From an uncultured Allomuricauda sp. (lineage in GTDB: Bacteria > Bacteroidota > Bacteroidia > Flavobacteriales > Flavobacteriaceae): a stretch of 64,000 nt of DNA. This document shows positions 18,058 through 49,930 of the stretch, piece after piece. The stretch is taken from NCBI RefSeq assembly GCF_947499695.1, contig NZ_CANMPQ010000003.1:1-64000 (forward strand). Direction: 5' to 3'. The position numbers were made by a program, and so were the translations under genes. The notes under the pieces were generated by a model, which searched no databases, was not told the origin of the DNA, and saw only the letters and a list, made by a program, of their open reading frames with translations. Position 1 is the first letter of the stretch; every line of letters starts with the position of its first letter.

Positions 18058-18099
18058 GTTAAAATGTTACAAGATTATTTGATTTTTTTTATTAAATGA

Positions 18100-19212: not shown

Positions 19213-19248
19213 TGTAATTAATATGGTTTATTTTGATTGATGATTCTT

Positions 19249-20508: not shown

Positions 20509-20533
20509 CTTAATGTACGCTTTTGGTTAGTAA

Positions 20534-21778
20534 TTATTCTTCCCTTAATGATTCTATTACCTGGACTTTCGCCGCTCTTAGCGCTGGTATAAGTCCTGCA
20601 AGTGCCCCGGCAAATACAAGAACCAAAACCGTAGAAAAGGCCACATTAAAATTTACTGATGGATTTTTTACATAATCTATCTGCACATGCGGGCCCAATA
20701 TTTCTAAAAGGGTCATACTAAAAATTAAACCGGAAAATCCAGAAATGGCCGTAACAAAAATAGCTTCATGTAAAATCATCCCCACAATGGACCACGGCTT
20801 GGCACCAAGGGCTTTGCGAATACCTATTTCACGTGTACGTTCTTTCACAACAATGAGCATAATATTGCTCACTCCCACTACTCCCGCAATTATGGTACAT
20901 CCACCCACAAACCAAAAAAACAGTTTCATGTTGTTCGTAATACCATAGTATCGCTTTGCTTCCTCCATGGCACTCCATACATCAATGGCGGCCTCGTCAT
21001 CGGGCGCAACGGTATGGGATTGTTGTAAATAGGACCTTAGATCGGCTTTGAACTTCACCGCTTGTGCCACGGCTTGATCAAAGTTTTCCACTTCAGGAAG
21101 TGTATAGGATAAATTGTTCACTCTATCTCCCCCATTAAAAACGCGCTGCGCTGTTGTGATAGGAATATAGATACGCTCCTCTTCACGATCCTGCATTTCT
21201 CCAAAAACTCCCACTATTTTAAAAGGTATCCCAGAAATATCTATGAATTCCCCAACAGGAGAATCAACTTCGGTAAAGACGTCTTTTTTTATTTTATTAC
21301 CAATTACGGCTACTTTGCCGGTGGAGTTTTCGTCTTGGAAATTTATAAAGCGTCCTTCCCTCATTTTAGGACCTTCAATGAACTGAAAATCCGCACCAAC
21401 CCCTTGAACACTGTACACAAGGGATTCTTTGCCGTAATTCACGGTAATATTTCGAACAAATATTCGTGGAGATTTGTATTCGACCGTTTCTTTGAACATG
21501 GAAGCCGTGTTCTCAAAGTTGTCGTTATTAAAACGGATACGTCTTCCCGGATTAAGGCCTTTAAATTCTTTTGAAGTTACTCCTGGCCATGCCCACACAC
21601 TGGTTGTGGCATCTTGCTTGAATTCATGCTCAATACCGTTTCTCATTCCCTGGCCAAAACCTAAGAGAATTACAAGAATGAAAATACCGGAAGCTACCGA
21701 AAGTCCGGTTAAAAATGTGCGTAGCTTGTTCTTCCTTATGGTGTCAAAGATTTCTTGCCACCTTTCAATGTCGAACAT
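20534..21778 (-). CDS. MacB/FtsX-type ABC transporter permease A
   Basis: First gene of the efflux locus, 414 residues from the ATG at 21778. The frame extends another 18 codons upstream, but the family start MFDIERWQEIF and the matching starts of the three paralogs fix this ATG. It has the same layout: N-terminal helix, MacB-PCD domain, three FtsX helices with GVSNIMLIVVKERTREIGIR, and an end AKVQVIESLREE. The upstream 110 bases contain a near-match -7 element (TAATTTTTG, one base too long), so the operon promoter is uncertain. Confidence 0.9.
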   Translation of the reverse strand: MFDIERWQEIFDTIRKNKLRTFLTGLSVASGIFILVILLGFGQGMRNGIEHEFKQDATTSVWAWPGVTSKEFKGLNPGRRIRFNNDNFENTASMFKETVEYKSPRIFVRNITVNYGKESLVYSVQGVGADFQFIEGPKMREGRFINFQDENSTGKVAVIGNKIKKDVFTEVDSPVGEFIDISGIPFKIVGVFGEMQDREEERIYIPITTAQRVFNGGDRVNNLSYTLPEVENFDQAVAQAVKFKADLRSYLQQSHTVAPDDEAAIDVWSAMEEAKRYYGITNNMKLFFWFVGGCTIIAGVVGVSNIMLIVVKERTREIGIRKALGAKPWSIVGMILHEAIFVTAISGFSGLIFSMTLLEILGPHVQIDYVKNPSVNFNVAFSTVLVLVFAGALAGLIPALRAAKVQVIESLREE

Positions 21779-21892
21779 AGTGGTTGGTGTTTGATGATTG
21801 ATGAAATACGTTACCGTACCCCAATATGACAAAAATTACGCCAGAATGTTACACTTTAAAGGTAAAAAAAGTGTTAAAACTTTAAAAATATG

Positions 21893-22105
21893 TCAGTTAC
21901 GAAGCTTTTTATACACAAAATAGAAGAGGCCACCGACCAAAATATAAGGAATTGCCATTAGGTAAACGATTCCATTATTAATTCCTTCAGCTGTTTCACC
22001 TCCGACCTCACTTTCTACAACTGCACGACACATGGCACATTGTGCCTCGGCAATTTCGGGCAGTAATGCAAAAACCAATAGGAGTATGAATAATCTAGTC
22101 TTCAC
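21893..22105 (-). CDS. Small CxxC membrane protein of the oxidase-assembly cluster
   Basis: A 70-residue protein with a signal peptide or first helix (residues 1-21), then QCAMC (Cys23, Cys26) just after it, a Glu/Gly-rich stretch and one membrane helix (about 46-64) ending in KKLRN. It starts with GTG at 22105, eight bases after the DUF420 gene. I recognise no named family. The exported CxxC pair and its position at the end of an SCO1/DUF420 transcript suggest a part in copper or redox handling during cytochrome oxidase assembly, which is inference from context. Confidence 0.7.
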   Translation of the reverse strand: MKTRLFILLLVFALLPEIAEAQCAMCRAVVESEVGGETAEGINNGIVYLMAIPYILVGGLFYFVYKKLRN

Positions 22106-22113
22106 TGTTCAAG

Positions 22114-22650
22114 TCAATATTGATAATAAGGTGAAATCATAAGGTACACAATGACACCCGTGACGGCTACATACAACCAAATAGGAAAAGTATATTTTGC
22201 CCACTTTCTATGGGCTACGTAATCCTCCAAATATCCTTTGGAATAGGTAATTAAAACCAAGGGAATTACCGCAATAGAAAGCAAAATATGAGTAAGTAAA
22301 ATAAAGAAATAAACATACCTTAGGGTACCTTCTCCTCCATAAGGTGTGCTTTGCGAAGTCATATGATATGCAACATACATAACCAAAAACAATGCAGAAA
22401 GTATAATACAAGTTGTCATTAATTTTTGATGTATACTTCTTTTACCGTTTTTAATAGCTATCACAGCTGCTATAAGTAAAATAGCTGTAAGCCCATTTAT
22501 TGATGCATAGATCGGAGGTAAAAATGTTAACGGTTTGGCATCAGGTATCTTGTACATAAAAAGTAGCGCCACAAGCAAGGGAACAGCTATAGAAACGGCA
22601 GTTATCCACTTTTTGAATTGCTTTTCATTGGCTGAAATGGCTTCCTTCAT
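22114..22650 (-). CDS. DUF420 membrane protein
   Basis: A 178-residue inner-membrane protein with five helices, typical of the DUF420 (CtaM-like) family that is regularly found with cytochrome c oxidase assembly genes. A conserved histidine lies in helix 3 (MYVAYHMT) and another in helix 4 (LTHILLS). The ATG overlaps the SCO1 stop codon by four bases (ATGA), so it is coupled to SCO1. In Gram-positive relatives CtaM is needed for heme-copper oxidase activity; for this copy the function is inferred. Confidence 0.88.
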   Translation of the reverse strand: MKEAISANEKQFKKWITAVSIAVPLLVALLFMYKIPDAKPLTFLPPIYASINGLTAILLIAAVIAIKNGKRSIHQKLMTTCIILSALFLVMYVAYHMTSQSTPYGGEGTLRYVYFFILLTHILLSIAVIPLVLITYSKGYLEDYVAHRKWAKYTFPIWLYVAVTGVIVYLMISPYYQY

Positions 22651-23393
22651 TCTTCTAAAAGTAATTTTTTAATATCCTCTTTTAACATTGTTATCTGCTG
22701 TGCCTCGCCCTCGGCATTAACTCCTTGTTTTTCTGTAATGGTACCTCGGTAATATATCAAAGGATTACCGTATTCATCATTTCTGGAACGAATGTAACCT
22801 TGTTTATCTACCAAAGCGAACATTCCTGAGTGCTCAAATCCACCAGGAGCATCTTCAACTTCATTAGCAACAATATAGAATCCTTCTTGTGCCAGTTTAT
22901 AAATAGTATCTCGGTCCCCGGTTAAAAGATGCCAATCCTCATCATGAATTCCATACTTCTGTGTATATTTTTTTAAAATGGATGGAGTGTCGTAACGCGG
23001 ATTTATAGTGAATGAAGCAACCCCAAAATCCTCATAATCTTTAAAGGTATCTTGAAGCTCCACCAAGTTTTTGGTCATTATTGGACAAATGGTGGGGCAG
23101 GTGGTAAAAAAAAACTCGACCACATATACTTTGCCCAAATAGTCCTTGTTGGAAACCAGTACGCTATCTTGATTCAAAAATGAAAAGGCGGGTACTTTCC
23201 TTTTTTGTCCATTCCCAACAATAAAACCTAAATGTTTTTGCGCAGCCTGAACACTCATTCTGTCATTTTCCACAATATCGCCTTCCTTGAGTTTTTTGGT
23301 CATTTCGTAGACAGCAAAGACTCCAAATACCAGGATAACGGCAGATATCCATACGTAGTTATATTTCTTTTTCTTATTTGCTCCTGTCGGCAT
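22647..23393 (-). CDS. SCO1/SenC family copper chaperone
   Basis: A 248-residue protein held in the inner membrane by one helix (about 13-31), with a thioredoxin-like domain outside. The copper ligands of the SCO family are present: Cys99 and Cys103 in TTCPTICPIM and His188 in FEHSGMF. It delivers copper to the CuA site of oxidase subunit II. The ATG lies 20 bases inside the preceding Cys-less thioredoxin-like gene, and its stop overlaps the DUF420 start, so three genes are tightly coupled. Confidence 0.93.
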   Translation of the reverse strand: MPTGANKKKKYNYVWISAVILVFGVFAVYEMTKKLKEGDIVENDRMSVQAAQKHLGFIVGNGQKRKVPAFSFLNQDSVLVSNKDYLGKVYVVEFFFTTCPTICPIMTKNLVELQDTFKDYEDFGVASFTINPRYDTPSILKKYTQKYGIHDEDWHLLTGDRDTIYKLAQEGFYIVANEVEDAPGGFEHSGMFALVDKQGYIRSRNDEYGNPLIYYRGTITEKQGVNAEGEAQQITMLKEDIKKLLLEE

Positions 23394-24006
23394 TATTTTT
23401 CTTTAGGGCAAGACGATATTCAGCTAAAATAATCTTAACATCATCTTCCATTTTATTGTTTAATTCGGCAACTGAAGTTGTATTAAATCCGTATTTGACC
23501 CCTTCATCTTCGTCATCATTTCTGCCTCTAAGGCTCAAATCTTTATCGATGATAAAAACATACGGACTCCCCATATCTTCCTCTAATTGAATTCCCGTCT
23601 TCAAGCTATCAAAAAAGGAGGCAATTTCCGTGTGGGTTCCAAAAGCGAAATGCCATTTGGTAACATCAGAAAACTCTCCAAGTTCCTTTTTTAAAGCAGC
23701 GGTCTCATCTTCCGTTCCCTCAGATGCGATCATAACCAACTGCAAATCTTTAAACTTCCCAAATCGCTTGTAGATTTTTTGATTTAGGTTGAAGGCATTG
23801 CCTTTTCTCTTTTCGATATCATTACCCAAAAACCCAAGTATGGTAATCTTGTCCCTTAGTGTAACATTGCCGTTGAAATCCGATAATTCTTGAAGATTTG
23901 AGGTAAGAATGGGTAATTTTCCAAAGTTGTTCACCCCCGATGCAAAGAATAAATAAGCCACCAAAGGAAGTATAAATAGAACAACTAAAACAAAAGTCTT
24001 TTTCAT
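23374..24006 (-). CDS. Cysteine-less membrane-anchored thioredoxin/SCO-like protein
   Basis: A 210-residue protein with one N-terminal membrane helix (about 4-23) and a domain resembling a thioredoxin or SCO fold (strands ITILGFLG and LQLVMIAS, then SPYVFIIDKDLSLRGR). There is no cysteine anywhere in the protein, so it cannot act by a CxxC redox site or bind copper as SCO1 does. It is the first gene of the SCO1-DUF420 transcript and overlaps SCO1 by 20 bases. I do not recognise a named family; an accessory role beside SCO1 is the most likely reading. Confidence 0.72.
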   Translation of the reverse strand: MKKTFVLVVLFILPLVAYLFFASGVNNFGKLPILTSNLQELSDFNGNVTLRDKITILGFLGNDIEKRKGNAFNLNQKIYKRFGKFKDLQLVMIASEGTEDETAALKKELGEFSDVTKWHFAFGTHTEIASFFDSLKTGIQLEEDMGSPYVFIIDKDLSLRGRNDDEDEGVKYGFNTTSVAELNNKMEDDVKIILAEYRLALKKNNADRSK

Positions 24007-24030
24007 TGGAATTTGGATTGTACAAAAATA

Positions 24031-24057
24031 AAAAAGACGGTTATAAAACCGCCTTTT
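24031..24057 (-). terminator. Rho-independent terminator after oxidase subunit IV gene
   Basis: Left arm AAAAAGACGGTT (24031-24042) pairs with AACCGCCTTTTT (24046-24057) apart from one A-C mismatch, and A/T runs continue on both sides. It separates the ctaB-coxIII-coxIV transcript from the SCO1 transcript. Confidence 0.7.
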
Positions 24058-24075
24058 TCATTTGTTAATACTTTT

Positions 24076-24459
24076 CTAGAAATTCCAGGATAAAAATCCA
24101 TCCTTGAATATATTGTAAATGTAATCTGCTTCAAATAACAGAATGAACACTAGATAACATATAAGGAAGATTGGTGTCCAGACAATAGCTCTTCGCAACG
24201 AGCTTCTCTCATCACGCAAGTGCATAAAGTCCCAAGCAATGTAGTATGCTTTTACCAAAGTCAGAATGATGAATATCCAGTTAAGGAGTTTCATTCCTAT
24301 AAAATAGTTTTGGGTTAAAACCTCAGGTTTAAAAATCCCTAAAACAACCTCTACCGCCGTAACGATGGAAAGAAAAATCAATACTCCCCAAATCTTTTGG
24401 ATGTTGTTCTTAAACTTTACTAGTCCTCTAAAAATTTCTAGTTTATGTTCGTGTGCCAT
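24076..24459 (-). CDS. Cytochrome c oxidase subunit IV (prokaryotic type)
   Basis: A 127-residue inner-membrane protein with three helices (about 20-42, 50-70 and 88-112), the size and pattern of the prokaryotic COX4 subunit of caa3-type oxidases. Its start MAHEHKLEIFRGLVKFK is cytoplasmic. It follows subunit III by 48 bases and precedes a terminator, so it is the last gene of the ctaB-coxIII-coxIII-coxIV unit. The assignment rests on size, topology and position, since this subunit is poorly conserved in sequence. Confidence 0.82.
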   Translation of the reverse strand: MAHEHKLEIFRGLVKFKNNIQKIWGVLIFLSIVTAVEVVLGIFKPEVLTQNYFIGMKLLNWIFIILTLVKAYYIAWDFMHLRDERSSLRRAIVWTPIFLICYLVFILLFEADYIYNIFKDGFLSWNF

Positions 24460-24507
24460 TATACTGTAATTGATTGGATCCCTACTCTTGCAGGAATAAC
24501 ATAAAAT

Positions 24508-25482
24508 TTATACCAAATAAAAGAATGTAAATACAAAAACCCATACTAAATCTACAAAGTGCCAGTACAGTCCAACTTTTTCTACCATTTCATAATGTCC
24601 GCGACGCTCATATGTGCCTAGGATGATGTTGAAGAAAATGATAATATTTATAAGTACTCCTGAGAATACGTGGAATCCGTGGAATCCTGTAATGAAAAAG
24701 AAAAAGTCAGCAAACAGTCGACTTCCATATTCATTGTGAATAAGGTTTGCGCCTTCGACCACCTGAGTGGCATCTTTTAATTTTGCCAAAGATTCTTGAC
24801 GAGACAGTAGTGTTTTCTCTCCTTCTTCATTGATAGTCTCGGTACGAATAAGAATATTTGGTGTTGCCTTGAATCCCGCCACTACCTCATTTAAAGAAAA
24901 TGATGTTTTAAAGCCTTCATCCATAAACCATACACCCTCACTCTTTTCATGCTTGATTCTATCTTCTGGTAAAGCTTTTGAAAAATCCGCCAATGCAGCT
25001 CTTTCTCCGGTTTCGGCATCTACGAACTGAAGTATTCTTCCACCTTTGGTCTCTACAGCTCCATAATCACCTTTTATAAAGGTTGCCCACTCCCAAGCCT
25101 GGGAACCAACAAATATGGCACCCCCAATAATTGTAGCGAACATGTACCAAATAACCTTATTCTTTTTCATCTTATGTCCAGCATCTACAGCAAGTACCAT
25201 AGTCACAGATGACATAATCAAAATAAAGGTCATGAAGGCAACATAGATCATCGGGTAGTTTCCATGGAAAAAAGGAACGTGGGTAAATACCTCATCGGCA
25301 ATGGGCCAAGTTTCAATGAACTTGAACCTTGAAAAGCCGTAGGAAACCAAGAAACCAGAAAAGGTCAAGGCATCCGAAACAATAAAAAACCACATCATCA
25401 TTTTTCCGTAGCTAGCGTTCAGTGGTTGATTTCCACCTCCCCAAACGCTTTCTTCTGTACCGGTAGTCACGGTTGTACTCAT
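24508..25482 (-). CDS. Cytochrome c oxidase subunit III, long form
   Basis: A 324-residue inner-membrane subunit of the heme-copper oxidase. Conserved parts are MMMWFFIVSDALTFSGF at the start, QAWEWATFI before the middle loop, and FFITGFHGFHVFSG and GLYWHFVDLVWVFVF at the end. Between about residues 135 and 250 there is a hydrophilic stretch of roughly 110 residues, much longer than in typical subunit III; it faces the periplasm if the usual topology holds. It is followed by subunit IV and preceded by a second, shorter subunit III gene. Confidence 0.9.
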   Translation of the reverse strand: MSTTVTTGTEESVWGGGNQPLNASYGKMMMWFFIVSDALTFSGFLVSYGFSRFKFIETWPIADEVFTHVPFFHGNYPMIYVAFMTFILIMSSVTMVLAVDAGHKMKKNKVIWYMFATIIGGAIFVGSQAWEWATFIKGDYGAVETKGGRILQFVDAETGERAALADFSKALPEDRIKHEKSEGVWFMDEGFKTSFSLNEVVAGFKATPNILIRTETINEEGEKTLLSRQESLAKLKDATQVVEGANLIHNEYGSRLFADFFFFITGFHGFHVFSGVLINIIIFFNIILGTYERRGHYEMVEKVGLYWHFVDLVWVFVFTFFYLV

Positions 25483-25576
25483 ATTAAAAAGGTCGTTTTA
25501 ATAAAACTTTCACAAAAATACATCTTTTGACGTATTCGAAAAGATAAAGTTGAATGAAAACTGAATGGATTCAAAT

Positions 25577-39613: not shown

Positions 39614-41911
39614 CTATTCTGTTTCCATTTTTGCTTTCTTTCTCTTTTCCCGCTCCTGGGCATCAATGACTGCTACGGCGGCCATATTCACCATCTCATC
39701 CACACTTGCTCCCAGTTGAAGTATATGAGCAGACCTTCTCAGCCCCACCATAACTGGGCCAATGGACTCTGCTTTATGCAAACCTTTGAGTAATTTATAG
39801 GTAATATTGGCTGATTCCAAATTCGGAAATATCAAGGTATTCACTTTTTTCCCGGCTAGTTTGGAAAATGGGAAATTGTTGTGACATAACTCTTGGTCCA
39901 AAGCGAAGTCGGTTTGAATTTCGCCATCCACTACCAATTCTGGATTGGTTTTGTGTAAAATTTCAACTGCCTGTCTTACTTTTTGCGCATTGGGGTGGTT
40001 TGAAGAACCATAGTTCGCGTAAGAAAGCATGGCCATCACCGGATTAAAACCAAAAGTACTAGCCACACTTGCGGTCATCTGGGCAATTTCAGCCAAATCT
40101 TCGGCATTGGGGTCAACATTGATTGAAGTATCTGCCAAAAACAGTGGACCTCTATCCGTAATCATAATATTTACCGTAGAAGCATTTTTTACTCCCTTGG
40201 ATCTTCCCAATACTTCAAAAACAGGTTTTAATACTTTTGGATAAGACCTTGAATATCCTGAAATCATCCCATCAGCATCTCCTTCTAAAAGCATCATGGC
40301 TCCAAAATAATTTCGCTTGCCCATATTGATTCGGGCGCTGTATTGGGTTTCTCCTTTACGCTTACGAGACTCCCAAAGTCTCATGGCATATCTTGTTCGA
40401 ATCTCTTTTGATTCGTCGGATCTAGGATCAATAATAGTTACATCGGCGTCAAAATCCAGTTCTTTCATCAATTCTTCAATGACCTCTCGATTACCCAATA
40501 AAATAGGAATTGCAATACCTTCATCGTAAACAATTTGCGCTGCTTTCATTACATCCAATAGCTCCGCTTCCGCGAATACAATTCGTTTTGGATTAAGTCT
40601 CGCACGATTGTGCATCAGGCGCATTACTTTATTATCGTTCCCAGATCTTTGGTAAAGCTCTTCTTCATATTTCTTCCAATCTTTAATAGGTGCCTTCGCC
40701 ACTCCACTTTCCATTGCAGCTTTAGCAACTGCCGGAGGAATCTTGGTAATCAAACGCGGATCAAATGGCTTTGGAATTATATAATCCTTTCCAAATGCAA
40801 GTCGCGTTGTGTCATAGGCAATATTCACCTGTTCTGGAACAGGCTCTCTGGTGAGGTCAGCAAGTGCCATTACTGCCGCCATTTTCATTTCCTCGTTTAT
40901 CTTGGTTGCCCGAACATCTAAAGCTCCCCTAAAAATAAATGGGAATCCCAAAACATTATTCACCTGATTAGGGTGATCAGAACGGCCAGTAGCCATAATT
41001 ATGTCATCCCTAGTTTTACAGGCCAAGCTGTATTCAATTTCCGGATCCGGATTGGCCATGGCAAAAACTATAGGGTCTTTGGCCATGGATTTTAGCATTT
41101 CCGGGTTAAGGATATTTGCAATAGAAAGGCCGATAAAGACGTCCGAATCTTTCATAGCCTCTTCCAGCGTATCTATTTTTCTATCACTAGCAAATTCCTT
41201 TTTCTCTGGCGTAAGATTCTCCCTGTCACTTCTTATTACACCTTTACTATCCAACATCACTATGTTTTCTGCCTTTGCGCCAAAAGCTTTGTATAGTCTT
41301 GTGCAAGAAACGGCTGCCGCACCTGCCCCGCTTACCACAATTTTGACCTCATCCATTTTCTTATTGGCCAATTCAACAGCATTTAACAAGGCTGCTGCTG
41401 AAATTATAGCGGTTCCGTGTTGATCATCATGCATAACAGGAATGTCCAACTCTTCCTTCAATCGGCGTTCAATTTCGAAAGCTTCTGGTGCCTTAATATC
41501 TTCCAGGTTGATCCCTCCGAAGGTTGGAGAAATAATCTTGACCGTTTCGATGAATTTGTCAACGTCGGTAGTATCCAATTCAATATCAATTCCATCGATA
41601 TCCGCAAAAATCTTGAACAACAAGCTCTTTCCTTCCATCACCGGTTTGGAAGCTTCTGGTCCAATATTTCCTAATCCCAAAACGGCAGTTCCATTAGAAA
41701 TAATTGCTACAATATTTCCTTTGGCGGTGTATTTGTATACATCTTCAGGATTTTTTTCAATCTCTAAGCAAGGTTCAGCAACACCGGGCGAATATGCCAA
41801 TGCCAAATCGCGTTGCGTTGCATATGGCTTGGTGGGAACGACCTTGATTTTTCCTGGCTGGGGTTTGGCATGATAGAGTAATGCTTCCCTTCTTTGGTTT
41901 TCTTTGCTCAT
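39614..41911 (-). CDS. maeB: NADP-dependent malic enzyme with phosphotransacetylase-like domain
   Basis: A 765-residue cytoplasmic enzyme that decarboxylates malate to pyruvate with NADP+. The N-terminal malic domains (about 1-430) show YSPGVAEPCLEI, DDQHGTAIISAAALLNA and the nucleotide-binding VVSGAGAAAVSCTRL. The C-terminal part (about 435-765) is a phosphotransacetylase-like domain, including VDGEIQTDFALD, known as a regulatory (acetyl-CoA-sensing) domain in MaeB. First gene of the maeB-ruvA-sprA transcript, with a promoter partly overlapping an upstream terminator. Confidence 0.95.
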   Translation of the reverse strand: MSKENQRREALLYHAKPQPGKIKVVPTKPYATQRDLALAYSPGVAEPCLEIEKNPEDVYKYTAKGNIVAIISNGTAVLGLGNIGPEASKPVMEGKSLLFKIFADIDGIDIELDTTDVDKFIETVKIISPTFGGINLEDIKAPEAFEIERRLKEELDIPVMHDDQHGTAIISAAALLNAVELANKKMDEVKIVVSGAGAAAVSCTRLYKAFGAKAENIVMLDSKGVIRSDRENLTPEKKEFASDRKIDTLEEAMKDSDVFIGLSIANILNPEMLKSMAKDPIVFAMANPDPEIEYSLACKTRDDIIMATGRSDHPNQVNNVLGFPFIFRGALDVRATKINEEMKMAAVMALADLTREPVPEQVNIAYDTTRLAFGKDYIIPKPFDPRLITKIPPAVAKAAMESGVAKAPIKDWKKYEEELYQRSGNDNKVMRLMHNRARLNPKRIVFAEAELLDVMKAAQIVYDEGIAIPILLGNREVIEELMKELDFDADVTIIDPRSDESKEIRTRYAMRLWESRKRKGETQYSARINMGKRNYFGAMMLLEGDADGMISGYSRSYPKVLKPVFEVLGRSKGVKNASTVNIMITDRGPLFLADTSINVDPNAEDLAEIAQMTASVASTFGFNPVMAMLSYANYGSSNHPNAQKVRQAVEILHKTNPELVVDGEIQTDFALDQELCHNNFPFSKLAGKKVNTLIFPNLESANITYKLLKGLHKAESIGPVMVGLRRSAHILQLGASVDEMVNMAAVAVIDAQEREKRKKAKMETE

Positions 41912-41949
41912 ACCTAAATTTTAGAACAGCTTGTTTATTTTACAAGCTT

Positions 41950-41978
41950 CAAAGGTATTTAAAAATAAAGGCACCAAA
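41950..41978 (-). promoter_or_regulatory. Promoter of maeB-ruvA-sprA
   Basis: Minus-strand TTTG (41975-41978), 17-base spacer, TACCTTTG (41950-41957), a full TAnnTTTG match, with the maeB ATG 38 bases downstream. The -33 element lies inside the terminator stem of the upstream MFS gene. Confidence 0.6.
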
Positions 41979-41991
41979 ACATTTTGGTGCC
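41960..41991 (-). terminator. Terminator of the MFS transporter gene
   Basis: GGCACCAAAA (41970-41979), two-base loop, TTTTGGTGCC (41982-41991): ten-base perfect inverted repeat followed on the minus strand by TTTATTTTT. It ends the MFS transcript just before maeB. Confidence 0.7.
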
Positions 41992-42028
41992 ATTTATTAA
42001 ACTTAAACTACTTCAAACAATTCTCTTA

Positions 42029-43333
42029 TTAACTATTCTCTTTTTTCACATTTAAGCGCAGTGCTAAAATTGATGCTATTGCAAAACAGGTTCCAGCAAA
42101 CAACATCGCATTTACCGAGTTTCCACCCAGCAAATTTTTAAAAATAGGACCGAAGGACAATGTTTGTATTCCCATGGGAATAACAATCATCATATTTAAA
42201 ATACCCATATAAACTCCCCTTCTCTCCTGCGGGACAATCTTGGAAACCATACTGTACGGAATTCCCATCATAGCCGCCCATCCTATTCCAAACAAAACCA
42301 TCGGGAACAAAACATAAACGGGGTCGGCAATATGAGGAATTGCAAATAAGGCCAATGCAGTTCCAAATAGACTTATGGCATATACCTTTTTACCTCCAAA
42401 TTTCATGGTCAATGGCACTAATATTAACGCTACCACAGCAGTCACCACATTATATGTAGTACTCATTTTGGCTGCTTGGGCTGCAGCCTCAGAGGTATCG
42501 AATCCCATAGAAGCTCTAAACAAAGGTGTTATGAACTGCCAATAAACAAACAAGGCATACCATTGGAATAGATAGACCGCAGAAAGCTTCCACATAAACT
42601 TTGGCATATCTTTAACGGCATGCGATATTTCAATAAACGGCATTTTAAAACGCTCTATGAACGGTAAGGATTTATGTCGATTGATTTCTTCTAATTCTTC
42701 ATCGCTTGGAGGAATTTCCGGAGTTTTCAACACCGACCATAATATTGTTGCTATGGATAGAAATGACCCTATGAAAAAAGAATAGTATAGCCATTTAGGA
42801 ATAGTCCCCTCCACTTCTTGACCACCACCGAACCAATCTTGAAATAAAAATATGGATGCATTGGCCAAAAGAATCCCGGCGCCAACAAACAAACTCTGCA
42901 TTTGATATCCTATACTTAACTGGCTATCGGGTAATTTATCTCCAACAAACGCACGGTAAGGTTCCATAGCCATATTATTACCTACGTCCAAAATCCAAAG
43001 TAGACCAACAGCAAACCAAAGGGCGGGGCTCAATGGAAAAGCGAACAAACACAAACTACCCATAATTGCCCCAATCAGGAAAAAGGGTTTTCGACGCCCC
43101 CACTTGGGAGACCATGTTTTATCGGAAACAGCTCCTATTATGGGTTGAACAATGAGACCCGTTACGGGTCCTGCAATATTCAAAATAGGCAATAACTCTT
43201 CCTCTGCACCTAAAAAAAGGAAAATAGGGTTAATGGCACTTTGTTGAAGTCCGAAACTATATTGGATTCCTAGGAATCCCACATTCATGTTGAATATTTG
43301 CCAAAAATTCAGTTTCGGTTTGGTTAGCTTCAT
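42029..43333 (-). CDS. MFS sugar transporter (SLC45/SUC-like)
   Basis: A 434-residue inner-membrane transporter with 12 predicted helices. The start (FWQIFNMNVGFLGIQYSFGLQQ) and the loop motif D71-x(8)-GRRKP after helix 2 are typical of the glycoside-pentoside/SLC45-type sugar:proton symporters. In Bacteroidota such genes often sit by maltose or sucrose operons; here no sugar-hydrolase is adjacent, so the substrate is open. A terminator follows the gene. Confidence 0.85.
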   Translation of the reverse strand: MKLTKPKLNFWQIFNMNVGFLGIQYSFGLQQSAINPIFLFLGAEEELLPILNIAGPVTGLIVQPIIGAVSDKTWSPKWGRRKPFFLIGAIMGSLCLFAFPLSPALWFAVGLLWILDVGNNMAMEPYRAFVGDKLPDSQLSIGYQMQSLFVGAGILLANASIFLFQDWFGGGQEVEGTIPKWLYYSFFIGSFLSIATILWSVLKTPEIPPSDEELEEINRHKSLPFIERFKMPFIEISHAVKDMPKFMWKLSAVYLFQWYALFVYWQFITPLFRASMGFDTSEAAAQAAKMSTTYNVVTAVVALILVPLTMKFGGKKVYAISLFGTALALFAIPHIADPVYVLFPMVLFGIGWAAMMGIPYSMVSKIVPQERRGVYMGILNMMIVIPMGIQTLSFGPIFKNLLGGNSVNAMLFAGTCFAIASILALRLNVKKENS

Positions 43334-43463
43334 AATTCAGGTGGCGCTTTTCAGGTTAAAAAATAACGTGCCAAGTCTACTGAGCATCTGATGAAGATAC
43401 AGTTTTCTTTAGTGTTTCAATAAAATCAGAGTGATAAAGTGGCGATATCCTCAACGAAAACGA

Positions 43464-43485
43464 TTGAGATTTCACAAAATCTCAT
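43464..43485 (-). terminator. Possible hairpin after queG
   Basis: TGAGATTT-CACA-AAATCTCA at 43465-43484, an eight-base stem touching the queG stop codon. On the minus strand there is only a weak TTTT beyond it, so terminator function is uncertain. Confidence 0.35.
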
Positions 43486-44399
43486 TTCAAGAAATTAATA
43501 TTGCGCTCAAGTCCGGAGAATTTGGTTCGTTTAACAGCAGATTTTTTAAAGATTTTCCTAAAAACATCTTCTGTAATTTCCTCCCAGTCTTTTTTTGACA
43601 TTGAAAGTAATTCAGGGTTGGGATTAAACAAGGGCTCGTTATGGGATTTGGAAAATCGATTCCATGGACATACATCTTGACAAACATCACATCCGAACAT
43701 CCAATCATCAAATTTTCCTTGGAAATCTGTTGGTATTTCATTTTTCAGCTCGATGGTGAAATATGAGATGCATTTACTACCATCCACTACATAAGGTTCT
43801 ACAATGGCCTCCGTGGGGCATGCATCTATGCAAGCTGTGCAGGTACCGCAATGGTCGGTCACAGGAGAATCATATTCCAATTCCAAATCAATAATCAGTT
43901 CTGCTATAAAGTAAAACGACCCTACTTGTTGGGTTAGCAAGTTGCTGTGTTTACCAATCCAGCCCAATCCACTGCGAGCTGCCCATGCTTTATCTAAAAC
44001 AGGAGCGGAATCCACGAAGGCTCTACCATCAACCTCACCTATTTCCTCTTGAATGAAATTTAGGAGGTGCTTGAGTTTATCCATTATCACAAAGTGATAG
44101 TCGGTTCCATAGGCATATTTGGAAATCTTATAGGCATCCGGGTTTTGTATTTCGGAAGGATAGTAGTTCAATAAGAGCGAAACAACCGATTTAGAACCTT
44201 CCACCAATTTTGTGGGATCCAATCGTTTGTCAAAATGATTCTCCATATACTGCATTTCACCATGCATATTTTGGTTGAGCCATTTTTCCAATCGGGGTGC
44301 TTCTTCTTCCAAAAATTCAGCTTTGGAAACACCGCAAGACAAAAAACCGAGGCGCTTGGCTTCGGTTTTTATAAGAGCTGTATGTTTTTGTTTAGAAAT
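43482..44399 (-). CDS. queG: Epoxyqueuosine reductase, start codon unclear
   Basis: Cytoplasmic cobalamin- and Fe-S-dependent enzyme that reduces epoxyqueuosine to queuosine in tRNA. The cluster cysteines are in [16 protein letters not shown] and [31 protein letters not shown] carries the active-site aspartate. The first accepted-type start, TTG at 44342, begins at SCGVSK, inside the conserved N-terminus; the frame before it encodes [14 protein letters not shown], which matches family N-termini as I recall them, and runs back to a stop at 44427-44429. In that stretch there is no ATG, GTG or other TTG; ATT at 44399 and CTG at 44402 are the nearest candidates. The start given here is therefore provisional. 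Confidence 0.88.
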
Positions 44400-44457
44400 C
44401 AGTTTACAGTAAACTATAAAACTAAATTACAATTATTTAAGCAAGAATTTGTCCATT

Positions 44458-44829
44458 TTAATCTTTCGCCGTTTTAGGGCCAATCTCATTTTCCACCTCG
44501 CTAATTGAATTTGCCGGAAATCCGCCTTTTTCAGCATGCTCAAGAATTAGTTCTTCATTTTTTGCTTTATACAAACAATAAACTTTTTGATTTGCAACAT
44601 AGCTATGAAGCCATTCAATTTCAGTGCCCATTTCCGATAGGACCTGATTTGATTTTTGAGATATCCCTCTGAGTTGTTCTTGAGTTAATTCTCCCGCATT
44701 GGGAATTTCACGTTCGATTATAAAAGTCTTCATGGTTTCTTGTTTATTCTTGTTTGAATTTATCTGGGCATAACTGATTAACGCCATCAATAAGGTTGCT
44801 AAAATGATAGTTGTCCTGAGGATTTTCAT
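44458..44829 (-). CDS. Exported DUF4242 protein
   Basis: A 123-residue protein with a signal peptide (MKILRTTIILATLLMALISYAQ) and a DUF4242 domain (about 34-120): TFIIEREIPNAGELT, then EIEWLHSYVANQKVYCLYKA, AEKGGFPANSI. DUF4242 has the ferredoxin-like fold of the SCO4226 nickel-binding protein. Here it is exported, so it could bind metal or a small molecule in the periplasm. The next gene upstream encodes a regulator with the same domain at its N-terminus, suggesting a linked pair. A TAGTTTTG -7 box lies at 44858-44865. Confidence 0.82.
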   Translation of the reverse strand: MKILRTTIILATLLMALISYAQINSNKNKQETMKTFIIEREIPNAGELTQEQLRGISQKSNQVLSEMGTEIEWLHSYVANQKVYCLYKAKNEELILEHAEKGGFPANSISEVENEIGPKTAKD

Positions 44830-44861
44830 ATTACATTGTTTTAAAGTTTTTACATTTCAAA

Positions 44862-44886
44862 ACTAAAAAGTCTCCTTAGTGGAGAC
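44862..44886 (-). terminator. Terminator after the DUF4242-AraC regulator gene
   Basis: Stem GTCTCC (44870-44875) and GGAGAC (44881-44886), five-base loop, followed on the minus strand by a T-run. It separates the regulator from the exported DUF4242 gene, so the two are probably separate transcripts. Confidence 0.65.
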
Positions 44887-44925
44887 CGTAACAAAACGTT
44901 CTAATACTATAAAAAATAGCGCTAC

Positions 44926-46026
44926 TTATTCAGGATTTTTAAGGTATGACATAGGACTCAACCCAAACCGTTGCTGAAAACATTTGGTGAAATATGAAGG
45001 GCTGCCAAATCCACAATCGAAAGTAGTTTGGGTGATATTTCGATCAGTGGTAAGCAATTCCAAAGATTTTTGGAGGCGATACTCTCTAATTAACTCATTC
45101 GGAGACATCTCGGCCAACGAGGTACATTTTCGATATAACTTTGATTTGCTCATAGATAATTCTTGACAAAAATCGGATACTCCTAAATCAGGATTCATCC
45201 AGTTTTGTGATAGAAAATCCATTAATAGTTGAATAAAATTTTCATCCTTGGGGTCCACCCATTTAAATAGGTTTTTATCATCCAAACTTTTTTGGCCGTC
45301 GTCCTTGTAAATCTCTTTTATTATCGATGCCATAACAATTTGGTTTTGATTGGCAAATGCACCCAAATATTTTGCCATCTTAATGGTATCTCCAAATAAC
45401 TCTTTGCTCTTTTCTACCGGCATGCCCGCATTGACGCCCATTCTTAAGTTTATTAATTCCCCAGCAACATGCATTCTCTTTTGGACCGCAGCTGCGCACC
45501 CCAATGCTTGACTTACTGAGACGAATGAAATAACAAAATTATGGCCCTTTAGCTCTACTTCTCTACCTTCATGATTAGCCAATTCATTTCTCATAATTTC
45601 ATAATACAAGGTCATTAGGCGATTGGCCTTATCTTTCCCTAAATCATGCTGCAGCAAACGGACATTTGAGGTTTCGGCCATCAGAATAATTCGGAATGCA
45701 GGGTCATTGAAAACTTTTAAGTTTTCAGATAGTGTCGAAGTATCTTTTGGATCGGCAATTCGGCCTAAAAAGGCTTCTACAATATTGCTGTTGACCTGCA
45801 AAATTTCATGAGGCATCAATCCATGAGCCTTATTGTGCATTTTCCTTACCGCCTCTTCATTAGGAGCATCTATAAGGCAAAATGCACTACCTCTTTCCTC
45901 GTCGACCCAGTAAGTCATGCAACGACATCCATATTCATCTTGAATCTTCAAGTCTTCACGATGAGCTTCGGCCGCATGTTTTGCTTCGATTCCGGGCACA
46001 ATATGTCTGTCCATGAAAATTGGCAT
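44926..46026 (-). CDS. DUF4242 - degenerate nucleotide cyclase - AraC fusion regulator
   Basis: A 366-residue cytoplasmic protein with three parts. Residues 1-90: DUF4242 (MPIFMDRHIVPG, KAHGLMPHEI). Residues 110-240: class III nucleotide-cyclase homology, seen in GREVELKGHNFVISF and RMGVNAGMPV...LFGDTIKMAKYLGAFA, but the metal-binding aspartates are replaced (A117 in ILMAETS, H162 where GDG is expected), so it should be catalytically dead and may bind a nucleotide instead. Residues 265-366: AraC-type HTH pair (LSMSKSKLYRKC and the second helix-turn-helix ending SYFTKCFQQRFGLSP). Two palindromes lie just upstream. Likely targets are itself, the exported DUF4242 gene or the haloperoxidase gene. 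Confidence 0.85.
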   Translation of the reverse strand: MPIFMDRHIVPGIEAKHAAEAHREDLKIQDEYGCRCMTYWVDEERGSAFCLIDAPNEEAVRKMHNKAHGLMPHEILQVNSNIVEAFLGRIADPKDTSTLSENLKVFNDPAFRIILMAETSNVRLLQHDLGKDKANRLMTLYYEIMRNELANHEGREVELKGHNFVISFVSVSQALGCAAAVQKRMHVAGELINLRMGVNAGMPVEKSKELFGDTIKMAKYLGAFANQNQIVMASIIKEIYKDDGQKSLDDKNLFKWVDPKDENFIQLLMDFLSQNWMNPDLGVSDFCQELSMSKSKLYRKCTSLAEMSPNELIREYRLQKSLELLTTDRNITQTTFDCGFGSPSYFTKCFQQRFGLSPMSYLKNPE

Positions 46027-46042
46027 AATTCATATTTAACAG

Positions 46043-46097
46043 CTAACCATCGGTTAGAAATACCACGGATGGTTCAAACAATTACTTCTAGAAGTAA
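46043..46097. repeat. Palindromes upstream of the fusion regulator
   Basis: CTAACC-ATC-GGTTAG (46043-46057) and a perfect 16-base palindrome TTACTTCTAGAAGTAA (46082-46097), plus two copies of ATGGTTCAA nearby (about 46068 and 46132). All are within 155 bases between the regulator and the haloperoxidase gene, good operator candidates. Confidence 0.5.
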
Positions 46098-46181
46098 AGA
46101 AATACCTCTTTATGCTTTTAAAATAGCAAAAATGGTTCAACTTCATGTAGAAATCGTTCATTACCAGCATTGGGAAAATCT

Positions 46182-47498
46182 CTAATTTGCAAGTTTTAGA
46201 AAATTGTCCGCAGCATAATTACCGATTTTGGCTCCAAGTTTATACCCTTCTTCAGAATCATAACGAAAATGAATTCCCAAATAAACCCTTGACATGGAAG
46301 CTTCCATCCCAGCTTCTGAAAAGCTATTGAAAGAACGTGTAGACGGATTCATTTTCATTTTTCCTGAAAAAAATCCAGCACTATCAACTTCTTTTTGAAC
46401 CATGGTAAAAGCATAATCATCACCTTTTCCCAATGTATTTGCCAAAACCGTCATTGCCGATGTACTTGCTGTACCATGTGCCGATGGGTACGATGGAAAA
46501 GGGTATGTATGTTTATGCAAATTGTTCCACTCTAAATCTGGTTCCGTATCCGGATTCTCGTCATTTGCAGCCCATCGAATTGCTGTATAAGGTCGCCAAT
46601 GGTTATAATGAAATTTATTATCGAATACATTGATATAGCCGTCATAAATAGCCATATTCATAAGTGCAAAGGTTCTAGAAGCATCCCATAGATTCATATT
46701 CTCTTTTATGATTAGAGCCCGTAACAATCTATTGTGCGATCTTTCGCTAAACTCTTTCCACCACATGGCCAAATGGGTTTGGTCGACTGTTCTTGATTTA
46801 CTGCCAGAACTTCCCATTTTCTTAACCTCATTAAACGCTTTAGTATATTCATTGCTAGTAATCTTTGGCGGAGGTGGCACTATAAAATGATTGGGATTGG
46901 GCAGCATAAAGGGCTGTGCTGCTGCCCACCCAGCACCAAAAACAAAACCTTCAGGTGTACCACTATGTTCGTTGAACTCAGCATAAACACCTGGCCCCAT
47001 AGGATGCCATGTATAATCGGCTTCTGAGTCGAAACCATCTTTGGAACGTTGTTTCAATATTGCATTTGCTACAGCACTACCAAGGCTTTTTGCAATGGTT
47101 TTCTCATCGTCGCTAATATCAATTATCCATCTATTCAGTAGTATTTCCAACTCCCCCTTCTTATCAGGATATTGATCCACGCTCACAAAATAGGCAGCGT
47201 AAGCAACTGCCGCAATTGGATCAGTATTGACATATTCACCTTTATAAACGTATCGTTCGTATTTATGGTCAATGGTATTGAGTACATCATGCATAGCAAG
47301 ATGAACCATAGTGATTGTTCTCAAACCTTTTAATGTAAGTAGGTTATCCTCAGCTACGGCAATTGCGATAATCTTTTTATTCCATTCAGATGCAACCGTT
47401 GCCTTAGATGAATTAATATTGGCTTTTTTCGGTGAACAGCTCAGAACAGTTACAAAAAACAAAGTTATGGTGACGAGTACATAAGTGTAGTTTTTCAT
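46182..47498 (-). CDS. Vanadium-dependent haloperoxidase-like lipoprotein (PAP2 superfamily)
   Basis: A 438-residue exported protein: lipobox VLSC (Cys21), then an alpha-helical PAP2/haloperoxidase fold. The vanadate or phosphate site is complete: Lys295 and Arg302 (KFHYNHWRP), Ser339-Ala340-His341 (PSAHG, with Ala in place of the usual Gly), Arg404 and His410 (SRVYLGIH). The spacings Lys+7=Arg and Arg+6=His equal those of fungal vanadium chloroperoxidase. It may be a haloperoxidase or an acid phosphatase; sequence alone does not decide. It is followed by the DUF4242-AraC regulator gene on the same strand. Confidence 0.85.
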   Translation of the reverse strand: MKNYTYVLVTITLFFVTVLSCSPKKANINSSKATVASEWNKKIIAIAVAEDNLLTLKGLRTITMVHLAMHDVLNTIDHKYERYVYKGEYVNTDPIAAVAYAAYFVSVDQYPDKKGELEILLNRWIIDISDDEKTIAKSLGSAVANAILKQRSKDGFDSEADYTWHPMGPGVYAEFNEHSGTPEGFVFGAGWAAAQPFMLPNPNHFIVPPPPKITSNEYTKAFNEVKKMGSSGSKSRTVDQTHLAMWWKEFSERSHNRLLRALIIKENMNLWDASRTFALMNMAIYDGYINVFDNKFHYNHWRPYTAIRWAANDENPDTEPDLEWNNLHKHTYPFPSYPSAHGTASTSAMTVLANTLGKGDDYAFTMVQKEVDSAGFFSGKMKMNPSTRSFNSFSEAGMEASMSRVYLGIHFRYDSEEGYKLGAKIGNYAADNFLKLAN

Positions 47499-47587
47499 GT
47501 TTTCCCTTTTTAGTTTTTACTTCAGCAAGCTAACAGAGAATTAAAAAAAAGTATTTGCTCTAAAATTCAAAAAGTATGCTAAAAAAC

Positions 47588-48487
47588 TCAGCCGCGTTTA
47601 TGTAATTGCTTTCCCATTAACTGTTTCTTGAATCTCAATGGTGAACTTTGATATTGCGCTTTAAAAGATTTTATAAAATGGGAAGTGTTTTCAAAGCCAA
47701 TATCCAAAGCCACTTCATTTACATTCAAATCCGTAGTCTCTAGCAAAAATCGCCCATATTCCAATCTTTTATGTTTTAGCCACTTCCCTGGAGTGGTTTT
47801 ATAAAGCTTTAGAAAATCCCTATTGAAAGTAGCAAGACTTCTGCCGCTTAACTTGGCAAATTCTTTAAGTTTTAAATTGAAAAGATAATGTTCGTCCATA
47901 ATTGGCTTCAATGCTTTTTTACGACTGGAACTAATTTCTTTAAAATAATCTGTGGCCTTGGGGTTATTTCCCCCTGTGGCCACATTAACAATAAGTTCTT
48001 TGAATTTTATTTTGAGTAAACTTTTTGAAGGAGACTTGGGTAATCTGAAATAATGAAGTAGTGTCTCAAAATAATCATTAAGTGTTTCATCCAAATTCAA
48101 TGGTATAACACAATCAGTATTTTGAATGTTTGAAGCGGTAAATTCTAAGTCGCAATCATTTTTAATTACGGAAGCAATAAATTCATCCGGAACAAAAATT
48201 AATAGGGCACAAAAGTCACCATTCAAGATTTTATAAACCCGATGTGGACCCTTTTTAAGAAAAGCAGCATCGCCTGCCTTGAGCGTATATTCCTCCGTAG
48301 GTGTTTTCCATCTCCCCCCTCCCACATAGATGTAACAGAAATAATTCTTTTTTGCATAATAATCTACCGGAGACCCTACCAATGGGCAATCATAGTTGGT
48401 AAACAACAAATCATCCACACTTAGTTGTTTAAAAAGAAAATTATGTTCTACAAATTCATAAAAGTGAACCATGTCTTTTCGCTTCAT
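47588..48487 (-). CDS. AraC-family regulator with cupin-like sensor domain
   Basis: A 299-residue cytoplasmic regulator. Residues 1-130 form a cupin-like effector domain (EYTLKAGDAAFLKKGPHRVY); the C-terminal 100 residues are the AraC double helix-turn-helix (LKEFAKLSGRSLATFNRDFL, then VNEVALDIGFENTSHFIKSF and SSPLRFKKQL). This layout is common for AraC regulators in Flavobacteria. It lies between the haloperoxidase and the P450 gene, all on the same strand, and could control either. Confidence 0.88.
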   Translation of the reverse strand: MKRKDMVHFYEFVEHNFLFKQLSVDDLLFTNYDCPLVGSPVDYYAKKNYFCYIYVGGGRWKTPTEEYTLKAGDAAFLKKGPHRVYKILNGDFCALLIFVPDEFIASVIKNDCDLEFTASNIQNTDCVIPLNLDETLNDYFETLLHYFRLPKSPSKSLLKIKFKELIVNVATGGNNPKATDYFKEISSSRKKALKPIMDEHYLFNLKLKEFAKLSGRSLATFNRDFLKLYKTTPGKWLKHKRLEYGRFLLETTDLNVNEVALDIGFENTSHFIKSFKAQYQSSPLRFKKQLMGKQLHKRG

Positions 48488-48601
48488 ACTGCAGAAGTTT
48501 TGGTATGTTAAATAGCGGGAGAGTTGAAATCAAGATACAAAAAAGAAGATAGTTTCCTTAAAAAGGGTCTTTTATCAAGTTTGATTGGGGTCAAAATCCC
48601 A

Positions 48602-49930
48602 TTAAGACTTACGCATTTCAAAATTTAGCCGAATCTGCTCCGGCTTTAAAGTAATCAATGGATTGATCTCAACCTCTGTCATACCTGTAGAAACTTGAAA
48701 TCTTTTTACGATTTCCACAACTGTAATAATCATCTCATATGTGGCCATCGCATTTCCAATGCACATTCGTGGCCCAGCTCCAAAAGGATAGTAAAAATCA
48801 CCATGGGTCTTGGGAGGCATTTCCAAAAAACGATCAGCCTTGAATTCCAACGGATTCTTCCAAAACTCCTTATTCCTGTGCAGTTCAAAAATAGATAACA
48901 GCACCATAGTACCTTTATTAAAGTGTGCACCATTGATCTCCACAGGCTCTGAGGCCACTCGATCTATAAAATAGGCGGGAGGATACAATCGCATTGCTTC
49001 TTTAATGCAAGAAGAAGTTAAACGTAATTTATTAAAATCTTCCAAATCATATACTTCATTGTTAAGTTCTTGGGCCTCAAAAAACAACTTCTCTTGTAAT
49101 TGGGGGTTTTTGGCCAAAAAATACAACGTAAATGAAAGTGCGGTAGCAGTAGTTTCGAAGCCAGCTGTAAACAAGATCATCAATTCATCCAACAACTGCT
49201 TTCTCGGCATATGTGTTCCATCCTCGTAAGTAGCATGAAGCAGCATATCCAAAAGATCATCTCCCTGTGATGCTTCCTGCAATCTAGTTTCTACCAGTTG
49301 ATCAAGTATTTGTCTGGCCCGATCGCTTTTTTTCAAATGTTTATTGATTTCACCGGTTAGGTTATACCACCATTTAAAATAGGGTTTACGCATTTCCTTA
49401 ACAAGCATATTCTGATTGACCTCAGTAATATGCTTCAGTTCCATCATGGGCTCCCTGATATCATTCGTACTGAACAAGGTCTTTGCCACAACTTGAAAGG
49501 CCAAATCACCCATACGTGGAAGCATATCAATTGCAGAACCAGTTGGAATAAGGTCTAATTCTTTTGAAATGGCCATTTGCATGATTTCAAAAAGCCCTTT
49601 GAGTTTTTTCTGATGAAAAGCCGGTTGTATAAGTCTTCGATGGGTTCTCCAATGATCGCCATTAGAGGTTAAAAGACCATGACCTATATATTTAGCAAGA
49701 TCTTCGGTTTGCAGTTTAGACTTTTCAAAACTGCGATGTTTTGTTTGCAGTACCTGCTTGACCATCACTGGGTCTCTTGAAAAGACAACATTTCCTTCTG
49801 CTGGAATTGAAATACGAAAAGTATCTCCTAGCTTTTCAAAGTTCTCATGATGGAAGGGCAAAGGGTTTTTCTGTATTCTTTTCCGGTTGGCAATGACCTT
49901 AAGAGTAGAAATATGAGGCAATTTATCCAT
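48602..49930 (-). CDS. Cytochrome P450
   Basis: A 442-residue soluble heme monooxygenase. The I-helix AGFETT (256-261), the ExxR pair in KEAMR (Glu311, Arg314), and the heme-binding FGAGPRMCIG with the thiolate ligand Cys390 are all present. The pattern is of the class seen in bacterial CYP102/CYP4-like P450s; the substrate is unknown and no ferredoxin or reductase gene is next to it. Its ATG overlaps the ruvB stop by one base (TAATG), so the two are coupled even though their functions are unrelated. Confidence 0.92.
   Translation of the reverse strand: MDKLPHISTLKVIANRKRIQKNPLPFHHENFEKLGDTFRISIPAEGNVVFSRDPVMVKQVLQTKHRSFEKSKLQTEDLAKYIGHGLLTSNGDHWRTHRRLIQPAFHQKKLKGLFEIMQMAISKELDLIPTGSAIDMLPRMGDLAFQVVAKTLFSTNDIREPMMELKHITEVNQNMLVKEMRKPYFKWWYNLTGEINKHLKKSDRARQILDQLVETRLQEASQGDDLLDMLLHATYEDGTHMPRKQLLDELMILFTAGFETTATALSFTLYFLAKNPQLQEKLFFEAQELNNEVYDLEDFNKLRLTSSCIKEAMRLYPPAYFIDRVASEPVEINGAHFNKGTMVLLSIFELHRNKEFWKNPLEFKADRFLEMPPKTHGDFYYPFGAGPRMCIGNAMATYEMIITVVEIVKRFQVSTGMTEVEINPLITLKPEQIRLNFEMRKS

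Follow-up and report, generated by a model that had tools for sequence, protein, structure and literature searches.

A cyclase-derived domain without its catalytic residues in an apparently undescribed family of DUF4242-AraC regulators, seen mostly in Bacteroidota

Introduction

One-component regulators of the AraC/XylS class usually sense their signal through a cupin-like or other ligand domain, rather than through a DUF4242 domain plus a pseudo-cyclase, and direct-repeat operators with a 21-bp period are typical of the class. For DUF4242, the one structural study that we found is that of SCO4226 from Streptomyces coelicolor (PMC4186839), which lists His3, His12, His20, His23, Glu38, Asp43, Ser46, Glu74, and His76 as nickel ligands, describes the nickel sites as exposed and of weak affinity (Kd 10 uM), and suggests that those other than Ni-1 are plastic. 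Joining of a cyclase-type domain to a DNA-binding domain is described for the Mclx proteins of Mycobacterium (Rv0386, Rv1358, and Rv2488c), which combine a cyclase homology domain with a LuxR helix-turn-helix (PMC4452763); a reference cited there calls Rv0386 an adenylyl cyclase in its title. A search of open-licence literature found three papers that mention DUF4242 and none that contains it together with AraC.

Here we describe a gene from an uncultured Allomuricauda sp., located in a 64,000-nucleotide stretch of contig NZ_CANMPQ010000003.1 that is hereafter, as a whole, called the window. A first-pass annotation made from the sequence alone had read its product as a transcription factor with a putative nickel-binding DUF4242 domain, a catalytically dead nucleotide cyclase domain, and an AraC domain, sensing a nucleotide together with a metal or ligand.

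Results

The regulator gene (44926..46026, minus strand), delineated by its open reading frame, Pfam, AlphaFold, and three-domain relatives, encodes a protein of 366 aa, whose proposed order of DUF4242, cyclase, and AraC domains is borne out by Pfam, profile searches, and the predicted fold. The N-terminal DUF4242/SCO4226-like domain (residues 1-82; 45781..46026, minus strand), itself conserved among relatives, is recognised by Pfam at residues 4-78 (PF14026, E 1.3e-19; 70.6 bits against a cut-off of 28.5) and has a ferredoxin-like fold that, taken alone, aligns with SCO4226 (4oi6) at Z 14.8 with an rmsd of 1.2 over 80 residues, the next match being at Z 8.3; the full model matches 4oi6 with a TM of 0.88 by target. 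The C-terminal region (residues 258-364; 44935..45255, minus strand) is an AraC-type double helix-turn-helix, with an HTH_18 match at residues 287-363 (PF12833, E 1.2e-20; 74 bits against a cut-off of 33.6) and a model that aligns with 3lsg (Z 15.1, rmsd 1.4, 102 residues), and its profile matches all 67 aligned relatives (67/67), in keeping with the role as a transcription factor first assigned to the protein. The structure prediction that the first-pass annotation had called for, made with AlphaFold from the 67 aligned relatives, has a mean pLDDT of 92.7.

The middle domain (residues 108-250; 45277..45705, minus strand) is a cyclase homologue, as had been proposed, despite a sub-threshold Pfam score (Guanylate_cyc, residues 172-241, 12.4 bits against a cut-off of 21.9). 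Its residues 114-247 match the class III cyclase Ma1120 in a phmmer search against solved structures (E 3.5e-7), a profile of 25 relatives matches 3mr7 (E 7.6e-18) and Ma1120 (E 1.1e-15), and the modelled domain aligns with Ma1120 at Z 17.6 (rmsd 3.0, 147 residues) and with Rv1900c at Z 17.6 (rmsd 2.9, 145 residues). Pfam reports a cyclase domain in just 14 of the 67 members at E 0.01, so routine annotation can overlook the structural identity that the family is given here.

The cyclase fold is present, and the residues of an active cyclase (two metal aspartates, a lysine, an asparagine, and an arginine) are not. In class III cyclases these five positions serve in metal binding, purine selection, and transition-state stabilisation. 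Alignments with Ma1120 and within the family place Glu118 at the first metal aspartate and His162 at the second, while the purine-selecting lysine aligns with Glu158, the transition-state asparagine with Lys216, and the transition-state arginine with Tyr220. The loss of both aspartates noted at first reading is therefore real and correctly placed at His162, but its other position is Glu118 and not Ala117, which aligns one residue before the first metal aspartate, in a column that is Thr in 8/10 AraC-less rows. With all five catalytic positions changed (E118, E158, H162, K216, and Y220), the domain is not expected to catalyse by the known mechanism and is best read from its sequence as a former class III cyclase.

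Querying 199 genomes from the same family turned up dozens of relatives that are full-length and share 28-70% identity, and the same three-domain order, for which the first-pass annotation had proposed a search, recurs across Bacteroidota, where the family is mostly seen. A scan of named genomes retained 80 of 549 relatives, all found through one DUF4242 peptide pattern, so that forms lacking DUF4242 fall outside our counts; such forms exist, viz., three shorter relatives of 250-266 aa (L050, L051, and L052) whose similarity covers the cyclase and AraC domains. The sample counted with three-domain profiles comprises 132 distinct AraC-fused proteins (seven of them truncated yet showing all three domains) and 19 distinct DUF4242-cyclases without AraC, after three end-cut proteins were dropped (L092, L093, and L121, with KDTQN, DERQD, and DKDNR at the five positions). 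The Asp-Lys-Asp-Arg set is intact in 19/19 of the AraC-less proteins, 16/19 of which also carry Asn or Gln where the transition-state asparagine belongs, completing the full set (D-K-D-[NQ]-R). Among the AraC-fused proteins the full set occurs in 0/132 and D-K-D-R in 3/132; both aspartates are kept in 10/132 and neither in 89/132. Clustering at 90% identity (130 fused, 17 AraC-less) leaves the full set at 0/130 versus 14/17, with D-K-D-R in 17/17 of the AraC-less proteins. The first-pass annotation had named intact aspartates in close homologues as one observation that would speak against its reading; ten fused relatives keep the pair, and none of the 132 has the full catalytic set. Catalytic loss is a trait of the AraC-fused family and specific to that group.

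In a tree of 138 rows, including 119 of the 132 fused proteins, one branch splits AraC-fused from AraC-less proteins (SH-aLRT 99). This topology, together with the residue counts, fits a single AraC fusion after which the active site eroded repeatedly, although the root on the AraC-less group is an assumption and the reverse order is possible too. The AraC-less proteins come from Chloroflexi, Desulfofustis, Neomarinimicrobiota, and Solemya symbionts (L106, L107, L109, and L113 among them), from more genomes of the L113 and L109 phyla, and from one genome that belongs to the same phylum as the window; the two that were scanned score 48.8 and 55.8 bits with the Pfam cyclase profile, against the cut-off of 21.9. 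Two tandem AraC-fused copies (L187 and L196; G1067) occur in a genome from the Solemya symbiont's phylum, perhaps through transfer or a mixed assembly. Within the window's genus, a relative at E < 1e-60 is found in 15/60 genomes, the window's included, so the gene is patchily distributed there. The initial view that this is not a described system seems right at the level of the family, which is apparently a large, undescribed family of regulators; yet the gene is no oddity, given its relatives throughout Bacteroidota.

The fate of the emptied catalytic centre admits more than one reading. Entropy is zero at the Asp, Lys, and Arg columns of the AraC-less proteins, whereas the metal and pocket columns of the fused ones rank between 69 and 130 of 143 by entropy (1 being the most conserved). 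A pseudo-cyclase that had lost catalysis could have kept or re-tuned its nucleotide site (e.g., to a guanine type via Glu158) and become a receptor integrating a nucleotide with the DUF4242 ligand. The one hint for such nucleotide reading is the recurrent Lys-to-Glu change, seen in 36/46 members of the window's clade. The PDB title of 5d0g names an Ma1120 triple mutant 'KDA to EGY' crystallised with GTP; the fold is also well kept (Z 17.6), and the genome carries another four genes with a cyclase domain scoring above the Pfam cut-off, so cyclic nucleotides may be available. However, Glu at this position is found in 12/86 proteins outside that clade, the metal aspartates are both gone from 89/132, the cyclase domain is less conserved than either of its neighbours, and the low rank of the pocket columns fits relaxed constraint better than a conserved site. 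We consequently regard a nucleotide receptor, and with it the nucleotide reading initially ascribed to the domain, as unlikely, even though the domain could still bind a ligand. The broader form of this idea, namely that one AraC fusion was followed by a phylum-scale switch from a messenger-making enzyme to a non-catalytic receptor that binds a guanine-type or cyclic nucleotide through Glu158 and gates the DUF4242 sensor, is possible but rather improbable. Were it true, an old signal-making enzyme would read a signal and write it straight to DNA, and its outputs would be an exported DUF4242 protein, globins, or sulfur-redox enzymes.

The wide variation of the catalytic columns might alternatively be taken to mean that the middle domain is merely degenerating, in a protein without a specific new function. 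Against this, the reading frame, the domain order, and the fold residues (R112, G154, F168, G201, and P203) are kept in the 67 aligned members, and the operator and partner gene considered below recur, making decay very improbable.

The strongest constraint lies elsewhere. Identity to 15 close relatives is 87% for DUF4242, 61% for the cyclase domain, and 65% for AraC, and an alignment of 132 fused, 19 AraC-less, and 18 single-domain proteins shows H8, H22, D25, C50, and H64 of the regulator's DUF4242 domain to be invariant, with D6, Y39, W40, and H68 nearly so. This constraint and these near-invariant residues make DUF4242 the best sensor candidate, and the N-terminal domain is likely to be the sensor. 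Most of the conserved residues are also found in SCO4226, the alignment giving D6, H8, H22, D25, W40, C50, and H64 as shared.

What the domain would sense is another matter. Nickel or another metal, with the regulator controlling a metal-buffering partner, would agree with the naming of PF14026 for SCO4226 and with the 4oi6 match (Z 14.8), as also with the invariant His, Asp, and Cys residues, two of the regulator's residues (H22 and D42) being aligned with the nickel ligands His23 and Asp43. These two are nevertheless the only matches among the 7/9 ligands listed for SCO4226 that can be aligned: His3, His12, His20, Glu38, and Ser46 are not kept in the regulator, and Glu74 and His76 fall outside the alignment. 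The nickel binding that had been suggested for the domain thus finds five of seven alignable ligands lost and two kept; moreover, the reported binding by SCO4226 is itself weak, at exposed sites, and suggested to be plastic beyond Ni-1, the equivalog model for nickel-binding SCO4226 proteins (NF033706) scores 54.2 bits against a cut-off of 125, and no gene resembling a nickel transporter or a nickel enzyme is among the eight that were profiled at 39614-49930. Nickel is accordingly an annotation by analogy for the regulator's domain, and a metal sensor of this kind appears quite improbable. The nickel sites published for SCO4226 largely avoid the near-invariant D6, H8, D25, C50, and H64, and the true functional site of DUF4242, to judge from these conserved residues, may be undescribed.

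Directly downstream of the regulator, on the same strand, lies a partner gene (44458..44829, minus strand) coding for a 123-aa DUF4242 protein (PF14026, 92.1 bits) with a start that by eye resembles a signal peptide; a genome search finds PF14026 just in the regulator and this partner. In 48 of 91 distinct loci, a same-strand relative of the partner adjoins the regulator (41 downstream, 7 upstream); the adjacent position lacks one in the other 43, which include all seven AraC-less loci among the 91. From its N-terminus, the partner product would be exported and act outside the cytoplasm; some partner relatives start, by eye, like lipoproteins. A 49-sequence alignment places Ser at the partner's columns corresponding to H22 and D25 and shows the H8 column to be variable, and because the partner lacks H22 and D25 and varies at H8, a ligand shared with the regulator is doubtful; we rejected that idea on the strength of the two serines.

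A survey of 94 stretches around family members, left after removal of four duplicate loci, with neighbour families named from one representative each, found the partner gene in 49, a globin gene in 16 (the next gene downstream in 13), a berberine-bridge-type FAD oxidoreductase in 14 (within two genes downstream in all 14), a SoxA/TsdA-type cytochrome c in 8 (within two genes downstream in 6), DsrE in 5, TauE/SafE in 4, and two or more regulators in 9. The globin gene lies 3' of the regulator at L105, L112, L116, L123, L124, L127, and other loci, with a signal-peptide-like start at L112 and L102 and with the FAD oxidoreductase next at L116, L123, and L127. Arrays of two to four tandem DUF4242-pseudo-cyclase-AraC genes occur at L036, L070, L071, L072, and L074 and are followed by a SoxA/TsdA-type cytochrome c gene and, in some, by DsrE and TauE/SafE genes; a Puia genome has a double-DUF4242 protein 3' of the regulator (L132:7222-7884).

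These neighbours point to redox, gas, or sulfur chemistry for the subfamilies concerned, not necessarily for that of the window. They would suit a sensor that detects a redox-active small molecule, reactive sulfur, or a gas through the invariant Cys50 and His residues. We know of no redox chemistry of a DUF4242 domain, subfamilies may sense different things, and globin, FAD-oxidoreductase, and sulfur-redox families are not found among the eight genes profiled at 39614-49930, though a cytochrome P450 is encoded at 48602-49930; as an account of the window's regulator, this reading is tentative and on the unlikely side. The gene upstream on the same strand (46182-47498) encodes a PAP2/vanadium-haloperoxidase-like protein that has relatives in 2/97 other loci compared and probably lies outside the module.

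The regulator and partner promoters have a common layout of two 21-bp direct repeats, 17 bp, and a -7-like box. Ahead of the regulator (all on the minus strand) these are a distal candidate operator repeat (ATGAACGATTTCTACATGAAG, 46141..46161), a proximal one (TTGAACCATTTTTGCTATTTT, 46120..46140), which is the window's best-scoring site in the motif scan, and a box (TTTCTTTA, 46095..46102) 17 bp after the proximal repeat; a third copy of the repeat lies exactly 63 bp (3 x 21) away (46057..46077). Ahead of the partner, again on the minus strand, are repeat A (TAGCGCTATTTTTTATAGTAT, 44904..44924), which is weak in the window's genome (motif rank 10), repeat B (TAGAACGTTTTGTTACGGTCT, 44883..44903), and a box (TAGTTTTG, 44858..44865) of the form TAnnTTTG, the -7 consensus in Bacteroidota. 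A terminator-like hairpin after the regulator gene (44869..44887, minus strand) overlaps the partner promoter; the hairpin search found two such structures in 44300-46300 against 1.2 expected by shuffling, and a paired change in the stem is seen at L053. Rfam has no match at 43400-48600.

A de novo motif from 18 upstream regions, TTGAtCtATTTttttTATTTT, attains a log-likelihood of 162 against 56-62 in six single-base shuffles. With leave-one-out training, the upstream site of the omitted locus comes first among 17,000-25,500 positions on both strands in 16/18 loci (L060 has rank 2 and L068 rank 35), the motifs having been seeded from one fixed known site (L064, or L065 for L064 itself) and hence not being fully blind. 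Motif discovery in the gap before the partner alone converged on the partner's start codon, and the upstream-trained motif was for that reason scanned there instead; the gap site, never trained on, is the best remaining one in 8/18 loci and among the top three in 10/18, the window being one of the 8/18 below third, at rank 10 of all positions with its upstream region masked. Among 37 site pairs, 17 are spaced by 21 bp, five by 62-63, four by 83-84, and two by 105-106, with nine off the 21-bp ladder; a motif-free comparison of 33 repeat offsets around 82 regulators likewise has its maximum at 21, on the upstream as well as the downstream side.

The TAnnTTTG box follows the regulator gene in 16/18 close loci (L062 and L068 lack it and were excluded), and across these 16 the upstream-trained motif peaks at -59 and -38 from the partner's -7 box, where its scores average 8.7 and -2.1 (median over offsets, -24.4). 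A register peak at -60/-59 is also seen for the repeats of 23 loci that do not belong to the close set (7.96 of 17 versus a mean of 5.59), the box there being the first TAnnTTTG match, which in some may be a chance one. Of six congeners at 63-70% identity, meant as held-out loci, five were already in the set, and the new locus (L209) has its best site upstream, at rank 1 of 8144, and a weak gap site at rank 23; the upstream motif was not seen in five congeneric relatives at 40-42% identity (ranks 6-65).

The palindromes at 46043-46097, to which the first-pass annotation had pointed for DNA binding, do include an inverted repeat (46045-46054/46065-46074), but the element that recurs is the 21-bp direct repeat; by eye, relatives share the direct repeats and not the palindrome, which we rejected as the main operator. 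Beyond the locus, the genome contains no second match to the letters of the strong site at up to three mismatches, and as the backwards-read control has two, a single genomic match says nothing about a regulon. A composite pattern (three mismatches; none in the backwards control) has four genome matches (L197, L198, L199, and L200), which do not include the window's partner promoter and of which L198 and L199 belong to another AraC-type regulator. That regulator, of the ExsA_N type, lies on contig C2 of the same genome (L201, 4698-6491); it and the next gene, by eye an SDR-like ORF, both have 21-bp repeats of the same style ahead of a -7-like box. Repeats plus a -7 box may be a general layout for AraC-type regulators in this genome, and, given the shared style, geometry alone cannot assign a site to the DUF4242 regulator.

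Discussion

With moderate confidence, we propose that the protein is a one-component regulator in which DUF4242 senses, the pseudo-cyclase serves as a dimerisation and relay module, and the output is control of its own gene and that of its neighbour. Occupancy of DUF4242 by its ligand would be the input; the pseudo-cyclase, kept for its fold, would most likely hold the dimer and pass the DUF4242 signal on; and the AraC domains would bind pairs of 21-bp direct repeats beside the -7 boxes of two promoters, the regulator's own and that of the downstream, predictedly exported DUF4242 partner. On sequence grounds, the repeats at 46120-46161 and 44883-44924 are the putative binding sites, and their position in the promoters suggests activation rather than repression, such that an occupied sensor would switch on the regulator and a partner whose product would act outside the cytoplasm. 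Control of the own gene and its neighbour seems to be a feature of family members.

That the free cyclases are intact and the fused ones dead offers a natural experiment in the conversion of a signalling enzyme into a module of a transcription factor, and the candidate operators, the partner gene, and the invariant residues make the DUF4242 ligand directly testable.

Among described proteins, SCO4226 resembles the regulator's N-terminal domain (Z 14.8, rmsd 1.2, 80 residues); however, it is a free 82-residue dimer, whereas the regulator's DUF4242 is fused to two further domains, and five of its seven alignable nickel ligands are not conserved. The class III adenylyl cyclases Ma1120 and Rv1900c have their fold in common with the middle domain, which differs in that the metal aspartate pair, the purine lysine, and the transition-state asparagine and arginine are replaced. 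The AraC-less DUF4242-cyclases (e.g., L106, L107, L109, and L113) share the regulator's first two domains and their order; unlike the regulator, they lack the AraC domain and retain Asp-Lys-Asp-Arg in 19/19. AraC/XylS one-component regulators share the C-terminal DNA-binding domain. The nearest printed relative in design that we found in the open-licence literature is the Mclx group, in which a cyclase-type domain is likewise joined to a DNA-binding domain; that domain, though, is of the LuxR type, while Pfam identifies the regulator's C-terminal domain as AraC-type, no DUF4242 domain is named for the group, and an AAA/NB-ARC domain may intervene.
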